Positions 32,443 through 35,301 of a DNA stretch of 64,000 nucleotides are shown piece after piece (position 1 is the first letter of the stretch; each line of letters opens with the position of its first letter). The DNA lies in contig NZ_VANU01000001.1 of NCBI RefSeq assembly GCF_005771535.1, positions 558,001-622,000 of the forward strand, in the 5' to 3' direction. The notes under the pieces are model-generated. The model saw only the letters and a program-made list of their open reading frames with translations, was not told the DNA's origin and made no database searches. Source of the DNA: Arcobacter arenosus. GTDB taxonomy: Bacteria > Campylobacterota > Campylobacteria > Campylobacterales > Arcobacteraceae. Both the position numbers and the translations under genes were made by a program.

Positions 32443-33222
32443 TTACTTTACTTCTAGAATCTTCACAAGCTCATCTTGCAAACAACCATTTGTTGCTACA
32501 ATATATTTATCTTCAAAAAGTGAATATTCTTCACCTTTTTCATTAGTAAAAGCTCCACCTGCTTCACTTAAAATTATAACTCCTGCACTAACATCCCAAG
32601 GTTTTAAGTTCATTTCATAATAAGAATCAAAAACACCCTTTGCAACATAACACAAATCAAGGGATGCAGAACCTAACCTTCTAATATCTTGGCAATTTGG
32701 TAAAACATTTTTCATCATTTTTAAAACAGAATCTAAATCATCTTGATTTGTTCCACTTGTATAAGGAAATCCTGTTGCAATTAATGCCTTTTGAAAATCA
32801 TTTTCCTTTGAAACTTCAATTTTCTTTCCATTTAAAAAAGCACCCTTTTTTACTTGAGCTTCATATAATTCATTTAATATAGGATTATAAACAATTCCAT
32901 AAAAAGGTTTTTTATCTTTGTATACTCCAACAGAAATAGCAGTATGGGGTACACCATTTACAAAATTTGTTGTACCATCAATTGGATCAATAATTATTGA
33001 GTCATTAAATTTAATATCACTATTATCTGACTCTTCTGCTATAAGATTGAATTGATTAAACTCCTTTGAAAACTTTTCTTTTAAAAAGTTTTCAATACCA
33101 ACATCATATTTTGTTACTAAATCTTTTTTTGCTTTAAAATTTATCTCTTTTGTTGAGAAATACCCTTCTTTTAGTATCTCACCAGCTTCTTTAACTATCT
33201 CTTTTAATCTATCAATCATCAT
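32443..33222 (-). CDS. suhB: inositol-1-monophosphatase family protein
   Basis: A 259-aa magnesium phosphatase. Metal-binding motifs: IAEESD, IIDPIDGTTNFVNG (the family signature) and KPWDVSAGVIILSEAGG near the C-terminus. Bacterial members include SuhB, which also aids rRNA transcription, and sugar-phosphate phosphatases; the substrate cannot be told. Two adjacent ATG codons; AGG lies six bases before the first. Confidence 0.88.
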   Translation of the reverse strand: MMIDRLKEIVKEAGEILKEGYFSTKEINFKAKKDLVTKYDVGIENFLKEKFSKEFNQFNLIAEESDNSDIKFNDSIIIDPIDGTTNFVNGVPHTAISVGVYKDKKPFYGIVYNPILNELYEAQVKKGAFLNGKKIEVSKENDFQKALIATGFPYTSGTNQDDLDSVLKMMKNVLPNCQDIRRLGSASLDLCYVAKGVFDSYYEMNLKPWDVSAGVIILSEAGGAFTNEKGEEYSLFEDKYIVATNGCLQDELVKILEVK

Positions 33223-33280: not shown

Positions 33281-33310
33281 TTGAAATTTAATTTTAAAAA
33301 GGAGTATAAT
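33281..33310 (+). promoter_or_regulatory. sigma-70 promoter of the small transcript
   Basis: TTGAAA (33281-33286) and TATAAT (33305-33310) are 18 bases apart, one of the best matches to a full promoter in the window. It points to the plus strand, away from suhB and toward the 12-codon ORF. Confidence 0.65.
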
Positions 33311-33339
33311 ACTTTTAAGAACATTTAGTGGAGGTGTCA

Positions 33340-33378
33340 ATGACAAACGATTCACTACTTTTTATTGTTAACATTTAG
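33340..33378 (+). CDS. 12-codon ORF with strong ribosome binding site
   Basis: Reads MTNDSLLFIVNI then TAG. GGAGG (33330-33334) ends five bases before the ATG, the best Shine-Dalgarno match near any start in the window. The peptide is short and hydrophobic at its C-terminal half. Whether it is a product in its own right or a device that controls the RNA structure downstream is unknown. Confidence 0.4.
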   Translation: MTNDSLLFIVNI

Positions 33379-33437
33379 ATAAACAATAATTTACTACAAA
33401 GTAAATTTGTAAATGAAAGTTTATTTACAATATTTAT

Positions 33438-33478
33438 AAAAAAAGGGAAGATGGTTTGAAATCAGCTTCCCTTTTTTA
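33438..33478. terminator. strong bidirectional terminator
   Basis: AAAAAAGGGAAG and CTTCCCTTTTTT flank an inner stem of five more pairs (33452-33456 with 33460-33464). T-runs occur on both sides, so it can end both the plus-strand small transcript and the minus-strand helicase gene, whose stop is at 33484. Confidence 0.85.
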
Positions 33479-33483
33479 ATGCC

Positions 33484-35301
33484 TTAAAGAAATGCCAAAG
33501 CACTTTTTTTTGCTACTTTTCCATCTTTTATAATTTTTGATAAGTTTATTTGTTCAGCTTTAGTAATCACTTCACTTTTTAATAATTCACCTAAAATAGA
33601 GCTTGTACTTCTATCTAATTTGTTTGCAATACTATTTATAGCTTCATCTTTTTTATATAAGCTTTTAACTTTTATCTTCTCTTCTAAACTCCATTTAAAA
33701 CCACTTTTTTTTGCTTTACCCTCTTTTATATTTTTCTCTTCTCTAAGTTTATTTTTTTCTTCTTGATCCATTTTTCTAAAATTTATTTTTTTATCTTTTA
33801 TATTAGATTCAATATTTTCATCTAATTCACTAATTCTACTATCAATTAATTTTTCAATATTTTTTGACATAAGATAGTGGAAGTTTTCGCTATCTTTTAC
33901 TAAAACTTTCCTAGCCCTTGTAATTGCTACATAAAAAAGATTAAACTCATCAAGAAGTTCTAACTTTGAATTTTTCTTTTGCTCTTTTTTAAAATCCTTT
34001 AAAGTAGTAAATCCCATATCTAAAATTAAATCAGCAAAATCGTTAAAATCATCTGCAACAATCACTTTATCCCACTCTAAACCTTTACTAGTATGGGCTG
34101 TTGTTAAAAATAAAATCTCCTCAACTCTATTTTCGAAACCATTGGTTTGTCTATTTTGCCAGGCTTTATAAAATTTTGTTGCTATATCTTTAAAATGAAA
34201 AATATTTTCTTTATATTCCTTTGCAACTTTTATGGCTGCTTTTAATTCAAAATCTTCAACCTCTTTTGCATAATCACTTAAATCATCTTCACATATAAAA
34301 TCTTTTAAAAATCTATTTCTTTTTATAGAATCATAGTCATTGTTTAAAAAGTAATAAACTTCTATTGTAAGATTAAATATTTCATCTGGGTTTCTAACAG
34401 TTACAAAAGGTTTTCTTGATTCAATTCTTTTTGCAATTATTGAAATCAATGAACCATTGGTTCGTGAAATATATCCATTTGTTTTTATATTTGAATCATT
34501 ATTATCACCAATTGAATCTATTTTTACCTCTTCATTTTTAAAATTTTCTAAAAGAGTATTTGCATATTCACAAATTGATTCATTAAACCTAAAACTTGTT
34601 GATAAATAAAATTCTATATCACAATCTATTTTTTCAAGGGCATTTTTACTGCCTCTAAATGAGTAAATCTGCTGATGTTTATCACCAACAAAAATTTTTG
34701 TTTTTGCAAACAGTTTTTCAAAAATTCCTAATGTTACTTCATTTGTATCTTGGGCTTCGTCTAACATTAATATATCATATTGAAATTGTGGTATTTGCTC
34801 ATTTTTCAACAATAGATAATAGTATTTCAAATAAAAACTATGTGTTGGTTTCATAATCCCTAACAACATGTTATCAAACATTTTTTTTGCACTTTTATGT
34901 TCTGTATCATCTTTTTCAATGGTATCATGTTTATTATTACAAAAATTCTCAAAAATTTTTAAAGCACTAATTGCTTGATTGTAGTTTATTTTAAACTCTT
35001 TTGATATATCAATTGCTCTATAGTTTACCAATGATGACAAATCTATATCTGTATATTTACTTACAGCTGAATAGGCTAATCCATGGGTAGTTTTAATAAA
35101 ACTATTTGATGGAAAAATCTTTGAAGCTTCATTTTTAATACTTGAATTAAAGGCTAAATATAAAATCTTTTTTTCTTTATATTTATTTGCAATAAGCTTT
35201 AAAGTTGTTGTTTTACCAGTTCCGGCAAAGGCATTGATTTTGATATTTTTGTATTTAGGAATTGATTCTATTATTTCATTTTGTTGTGTTGTTAAATTCA
35301 T
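33484..35301 (-). CDS. UvrD/Rep-like superfamily 1 helicase (FBH1-like)
   Basis: A 605-aa ATP-dependent DNA helicase. Walker A is AGTGKTT (26-32), motif II MLDEAQDTN, motif III VGDKHQQIYSFRG, motif V-VI TTAHTSKGLEWDKV and FYVAITRARK. AFNSSIKNEA after motif Ia is the pattern seen in the FBH1-like branch. The last ~110 residues are an added region: a Lys/Glu-rich linker followed by FKWSLEEKIKVKSLYKKDEAI, which looks like a small helix-turn-helix. It is a single-gene unit. It probably acts on recombination intermediates, but its partner is unknown. Confidence 0.85.
   Translation of the reverse strand: MNLTTQQNEIIESIPKYKNIKINAFAGTGKTTTLKLIANKYKEKKILYLAFNSSIKNEASKIFPSNSFIKTTHGLAYSAVSKYTDIDLSSLVNYRAIDISKEFKINYNQAISALKIFENFCNNKHDTIEKDDTEHKSAKKMFDNMLLGIMKPTHSFYLKYYYLLLKNEQIPQFQYDILMLDEAQDTNEVTLGIFEKLFAKTKIFVGDKHQQIYSFRGSKNALEKIDCDIEFYLSTSFRFNESICEYANTLLENFKNEEVKIDSIGDNNDSNIKTNGYISRTNGSLISIIAKRIESRKPFVTVRNPDEIFNLTIEVYYFLNNDYDSIKRNRFLKDFICEDDLSDYAKEVEDFELKAAIKVAKEYKENIFHFKDIATKFYKAWQNRQTNGFENRVEEILFLTTAHTSKGLEWDKVIVADDFNDFADLILDMGFTTLKDFKKEQKKNSKLELLDEFNLFYVAITRARKVLVKDSENFHYLMSKNIEKLIDSRISELDENIESNIKDKKINFRKMDQEEKNKLREEKNIKEGKAKKSGFKWSLEEKIKVKSLYKKDEAINSIANKLDRSTSSILGELLKSEVITKAEQINLSKIIKDGKVAKKSALAFL

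Follow-up and report, generated by a model that had tools for sequence, protein, structure and literature searches.

The rnTrpL RNA of Sinorhizobium meliloti is an attenuator-derived small RNA that is released from the leader preceding the trp genes and whose leader peptide, peTrpL, itself acts; both the RNA and the peptide have been reported or proposed to act in trans (PMC7298713). In Bacillus subtilis, the dual-function small RNA SR1 encodes a functional small protein, SR1P (PMC8501984). A third case, the intergenic small RNA CJnc110 of Campylobacter jejuni, exhibits a translation efficiency above 1 and has been suggested to be a small mRNA or a dual-function RNA (PMC11955535). As regards Arcobacter, Stav et al. 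2019 examined 38 intergenic regions of Arcobacter sp. L; the majority of the novel ones did not extend beyond the genus and were left unnamed (PMC6429828).

Here we describe a candidate RNA gene located in the gap between suhB and a UvrD-like helicase gene of Arcobacter arenosus, whose genome comprises 3.13 Mb with 29% GC. The analysed 64-kb stretch of DNA is referred to as the window, and its numbering is used throughout. The elements of the locus are as follows:

32443-33222, minus strand: suhB, the upstream neighbour, named from the reading of its translation
33281-33310, plus strand: sigma-70 type promoter, TTGAAA (33281-33286), 18 bases, TATAAT (33305-33310)
33317-33478, plus strand: predicted transcript of about 160 nt, its start inferred from the -10 box, with homologues over the full length
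33326-33357, plus strand: 5' hairpin, the window version of P1, UAGUGGA (33326-33332) with UUCACUA (33351-33357)
33330-33336, plus strand: Shine-Dalgarno sequence GGAGGTG, the sole occurrence on either strand of the window
33340-33378, plus strand: mini-ORF of 12 codons, MTNDSLLFIVNI, with the stop codon TAG
33362-33369 with 33382-33389, plus strand: perfect 8-bp hairpin of the window, TTATTGTT/AACAATAA
33363-33369, plus strand: conserved strand UAUUGUU, which in relatives is the 3' strand of P1
33389-33406, plus strand: hairpin P2 of 7 bp between the two 8-bp hairpins, ATTTACT (33389-33395) with AGTAAAT (33400-33406)
33407-33430, plus strand: hairpin P3, a perfect 8 bp, TTGTAAAT (33407-33414) with ATTTACAA (33423-33430)
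33439-33477, no strand assigned: near-symmetrical intrinsic terminator (A run, stem, T run) that matches itself in reverse orientation
33484-35301, minus strand: UvrD-like helicase gene, downstream and convergent with the RNA, named from the reading of its translation

Beyond the helicase gene lies groEL (likewise named from its translation). A DNA search returned matches in 14 of 16 genomes of the same genus, the relatives in our collection being Arcobacter and Arcobacteraceae metagenome assemblies, and covariance searches extended the set of full-length members to 11 genera of the family, with E-values of 1e-10 or better. The comparisons are based on 49 copies; weak covariance matches at E ~1e-4, mostly the bare terminators of other genes, were left out of the counts. 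No full-length match outside the Arcobacter family was obtained from a 36-genome sample of the phylum drawn from other families. An order-wide covariance search reached, outside the family, only two genomes of one genus (E ~1e-4), neither of which contains such a module: the match corresponds to a terminator-like hairpin in one and to unrelated sequence in the other. Six genomes (G005, G006, G013, G274, G322 and G329) carry two full copies each, as in sibling small RNAs. In the alignments, both TGGAGGTG and an ATTGTT strand are invariant, and a start codon, two AT-rich hairpins and a terminator can be recognised. The original prediction, which was made from the window sequence, had proposed conservation in relatives as a check on the unit, and the -10 box, the start and stop of the ORF and the hairpins are indeed conserved.

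The promoter had been described as full, and it is present with 11 of the 12 consensus bases. By itself it is unremarkable in AT-rich DNA, with about 2.5 sites as good expected per strand in each 64-kb shuffle; a comparable promoter with GGAGG-N4-8-ATG in the next 60 bases did not arise once among 40 shuffles of the 64-kb sequence. A -10 box that agrees with the consensus at no fewer than 5 of its 6 positions occurs in 47 of the 49 copies, and the -35 box is weak or variable. A strong terminator had also been claimed, and we find it at the other end of the gene, with a stem of 12 bp, one mismatch and 5 bp, followed by a T run. It was not picked up by a simple consensus scan; it lies directly after the stop codon of the convergent helicase gene, with which it is apparently shared as a bidirectional terminator, and it co-varies among the homologues. 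The terminator motif GGGAAN..GGTTTGAAATC..TTCCC, seen in the window and in copy L003, is a common bidirectional terminator that also turns up at other sites of the genome and in relatives. Copies L009 and L010 have a perfect inverted repeat, GTGTTATA-N5-TATAACAC, immediately before the RNA; in some copies the repeat overlaps the -10 box and the start site. It may be a repressor site and is not kept throughout the family.

The genomic surroundings of the gene are not constant. Its downstream neighbour is a convergent groEL in 19 copies, its upstream neighbour is suhB in 9, and the remaining neighbours differ. In the majority of copies, the gene on the downstream side is convergent. We therefore regard the RNA gene as autonomous and not as a leader; at the level of sequence, it is free-standing and has its own promoter and terminator. 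This is in agreement with the earlier view of an independent unit that is directed away from suhB, and hence is not the suhB leader: the orientation toward a convergent helicase gene is as described. A mini-ORF followed by hairpins and a terminator is, on the other hand, the layout of an amino-acid attenuator, but we give hardly any credence to a leader or attenuator of a downstream gene, as the gene that follows is convergent both in the window and in most copies and is not the same one throughout, and as the ORF contains no runs of a single amino acid. A leader-peptide attenuator in particular would act on a co-directional downstream gene, and the gene orientation in the window contradicts it.

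The predicted folding energy of 33317-33478 is -39.7 kcal/mol, compared with -21.8 +/- 3.1 kcal/mol for shuffled sequences (z = -5.69), and together with the matches in nearly all same-genus genomes this bears out the early impression that nothing in the gap looks random. In P2, changes on both sides are found in all 7 of its pairs, with 92% of the cells paired, and in P3 compensating changes occur in 5 of the 7 pairs tested. For P1, P2 and P3 together, 14 pairs are changed on both sides, 73 double-change cells are observed against 20.9 +/- 5.9 in shuffled data, and pairing reaches 89%, falling to 39-49% when the partner strand is slid. Since two hairpins and the terminator exhibit strong compensating changes, we consider it almost certain, from the comparison of homologues, that this is a real structured RNA gene; compensating changes in relatives had been suggested at the outset as the mark of an RNA, and the stems carry that mark.

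P1 evolves in a different manner: there is hardly any variation in its 3' strand, the 5' strand drifts for the most part via G-U pairs, and its alignments show little formal covariation, the changes being mostly one-sided G-U replacements. In the window, the 5' hairpin draws part of the ribosome-binding site into its stem. Most relatives have a different but equivalent P1, composed of AACAAUAU/GUAUUGUU and GGAGGUG/CA(Y)UUUU, which places the ribosome-binding site opposite a U-rich strand. Copies with altered sequences rebuild an equivalent 5' hairpin, namely UUAUAGGAGGU/ACCUUUUAUAA in L039, UAGUGGA/UUCACUA in the window and UGUAAC/GUUACA in L043, and GGAGG is predicted to be paired (0.58-1.00) in all 25 copies tested. 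The conserved UAUUGUU strand, less variable than its partner, pairs upstream in relatives and closes the hairpin over the ribosome-binding site, whereas in the window it pairs downstream with AACAATA (33382-33388). This downstream pairing is the first of the two perfect 8-bp hairpins that had been reported; both exist, but TTATTGTT/AACAATAA is specific to the window genome.

The position of GGAGG opposite U-rich sequence in many copies is reminiscent of a fourU-type RNA thermometer. However, from 10 to 50 C the site is predicted to stay paired to nearly the same degree in five of the six copies examined, and to exactly the same degree in the window, and no protein gene follows, just the ORF of 7-15 codons. 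With predicted melting that is too shallow for a site paired in the cold and free in the warmth, and no protein gene under its control, we reject the thermometer, to which we would assign a negligible probability.

GGAGG had been called the best Shine-Dalgarno site in the area, which accords with the uniqueness of GGAGGTG in the window. It is retained in 48 of the 49 copies (GGGGG in the remaining one), and it is followed by a start codon in every copy (47 ATG, 2 TTG), at a spacing of 5 bases in 46 copies and 4 bases in 3. An in-frame stop is likewise present in 49 of 49, ending an ORF of 7 codons in 27 copies, of 12 codons in 17 (including the window), and of 6, 13 or 15 codons in the rest. 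The 12-codon ORF of the original prediction is therefore real in the window, but 12 is one of two versions, the more frequent one having 7 codons. Among the copies with 7 codons, the stop alternates between TAG and TAA only, and the sole indel (copy L017) is the loss of exactly one codon. A 1-base deletion has put the 12-codon class into another frame, and there the former TAG/TAA position is no longer kept as a stop. Because variation is limited to TAG/TAA, the indel removes a whole codon, and the position is lost when it falls out of frame, we conclude that the stop acts as a stop codon and not as an RNA motif. It is probable that the mini-ORF is translated.

The internal codons tell a different story: pN/pS is 0.91 for the ORFs of 7 codons and 1.46 for those of 12. 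Both values are raw pairwise proportions computed from the distinct ORF sequences with no correction for phylogeny, and the second is confounded by structure, as the ORF of that class overlaps paired RNA. The encoded peptides, e.g. MTKVSHF, MTGLLQW, MTRRTFT and MTKEFDA, have little in common. Conserved codons with synonymous changes had been proposed as the sign of a peptide gene; the start and stop are kept in every copy, but the inner codons change regardless of the amino acid. Initiation and termination thus look conserved and the peptide does not, and its sequence is probably unimportant. An mRNA that encodes a functional micro-peptide, 7-12 residues long, would account for the ideal ribosome-binding site and spacing, for the conserved start, stop and length, and for the M-T-K-x-x-H-F pattern that recurs in part of the family. 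Nonetheless, we consider it improbable, given that no amino-acid constraint is detectable on the internal codons at these pN/pS values, that the peptides listed above share so little, and that the 3' hairpins are conserved as RNA without a coding role. By the same pN/pS values, a dual-function RNA whose peptide is under selection finds no support. Existing 7-residue precursors had also raised the idea of a Microcin-C-like heptapeptide, a family typified by a C-terminal Asn; this residue is missing here, and the idea was dropped.

The strength of the ribosome-binding site and the 7-codon ORF could also indicate a drain on ribosomes or tRNA, i.e. a minigene that, translated briefly and repeatedly, would release peptidyl-tRNA or occupy initiating ribosomes, and minigene effects via peptidyl-tRNA have been described (PMC8708949, PMC3856088). 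This is very unlikely: part of the ribosome-binding site is concealed in each of the 25 copies tested, the final codon shows no conservation, and the conservation of P2 and P3 would be left unexplained.

Three divergent copies of one genus (L042, L043 and L045; genus g7) keep the promoter, the hairpins, GGAGG in a stem-loop and the terminator, with no start codon at the usual distance, and possibly represent a version whose ORF was lost. As they have no start codon at the right distance, translation is evidently not needed in every lineage. It is mainly because this genus lacks a usable start codon and yet retains both GGAGG and the hairpin that we keep alive the alternative of a structured, essentially untranslated small RNA. 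GGAGG would then bind a protein or act as a 30S-subunit decoy, with the start codon and ORF as by-products. The GGA in a hairpin, similar to CsrA-type sites, and the two copies in six genomes, comparable to pairs of sponge RNAs, agree with this alternative. On the other hand, the genome has no CsrA match, and the start, stop and frame kept in 49 of 49 copies would be needless for a pure binding site; we regard this alternative as unlikely, albeit worth bearing in mind.

The window genome, G000, yielded a match neither to CsrA (PF02599) nor to Hfq (PF17209) in searches that found their positive controls. With both unmatched, small-RNA regulation here would need neither. A CsrA sponge, suggested by the GGA in a hairpin, was dropped as the main reading for lack of a CsrA match, and an Hfq-dependent small RNA was rejected in the same manner for Hfq.

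Comparison of the homologues thus reveals a conserved stand-alone unit, in which the structure and the start and stop codons are maintained and the peptide is not. The reading that we tentatively prefer for it, and which is quite possibly correct, is that of a free-standing small regulatory RNA gene of about 160 nt, in which the ribosome opens the 5' hairpin by way of a disposable mini-ORF. The 5' end would be a ribosome-loading module: a hairpin in which a very strong ribosome-binding site and a start codon are partly concealed, with an ORF (7 codons, 12 in the branch of the window) that ends at or just past the 3' strand of that hairpin. The simplest use of a module that takes up a ribosome and lets it go after a few codons would be mechanical: an initiating ribosome would strip off the 5' strand of P1, freeing the conserved UAUUGUU strand, and a ribosome terminating on the 7-codon ORF would halt right at this strand. 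We infer that the gene is transcribed and translated, that ribosomes open the hairpin and that the RNA pairs in trans with its targets; the movement of ribosomes would then decide whether UAUUGUU(AA), and perhaps the whole RNA, is free for target mRNAs or degraded. Exposing the pairing region, hiding it, or shielding the RNA from decay are alternative outcomes that the model would accommodate. P2, P3 and the terminator would form a stable 3' body, and the peptide made would be thrown away. Perhaps UAUUGUUAA or the linker AAACACUAAU is the region that pairs in trans. The latter is an unpaired segment between P1 and P2 common to copies L006, L009, L015, L019, L033 and L034 from three genera, absent from the window copy, and it could be a second pairing region. 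That the RNA is a ribosome-gated regulator acting in trans is possible, if conjectural. It had been suggested originally that the locus could be a regulatory RNA, or a tiny-peptide gene in which translation controls folding; the control of folding by translation best fits the comparative data, and the codons of a peptide are not conserved.

It is tempting to extend the preferred reading to the entire family as a switch, in which the translation of a disposable ORF of 7-12 codons, and not a peptide or ligand, sets the structure and activity of a free-standing RNA, reporting the capacity for translation initiation to its targets without Hfq or CsrA. We consider this rather doubtful in its full extent. 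Start, stop, spacing and length that are kept while the residues drift point to translation as a mechanical signal. If this is true, recoding of the peptide should be harmless and loss of the start codon should not.

The locus contributes an RNA family to the Arcobacteraceae, on whose small RNAs we found almost no literature, and it does so in a genome without a match to Hfq or CsrA. Rfam 15 gave 0 matches above the gathering threshold for the window and 12 homologous loci, and at a relaxed threshold the best sub-threshold matches were at the level of chance, which agrees with the original view that no matching RNA family was known. No Arcobacter small RNA of this description was found in the open-access literature. 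The structured, intergenic regions of Arcobacter sp. L left unnamed by Stav et al. (PMC6429828) are of a similar kind, and the present locus could be among them. Like CsrB/RsmY-type sponge RNAs, the Arcobacter RNA is predicted to be stable, has a GGA motif in a hairpin, and sometimes occurs in two copies per genome; unlike them, it lacks repeated GGA hairpins, and its genome gave no match to CsrA. CJnc110, from a related order, is likewise a free-standing small RNA, and one with ribosome occupancy; it resembles the present RNA by description, and for the latter the searched genomes gave no homologue beyond the Arcobacter family. In mechanism, the present RNA comes closest to rnTrpL/peTrpL (PMC7298713) and to dual-function RNAs such as SR1 (PMC8501984). 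From SR1 the Arcobacter RNA differs in the drift of its encoded residues and in a match to the Rfam SR1 model that is no better than chance, but both are free-standing small RNA genes with an internal short ORF. From rnTrpL/peTrpL it differs in having no downstream operon and an unconserved peptide; like that system, it is a short RNA that combines a strong ribosome-binding site with a very short ORF and a terminator.
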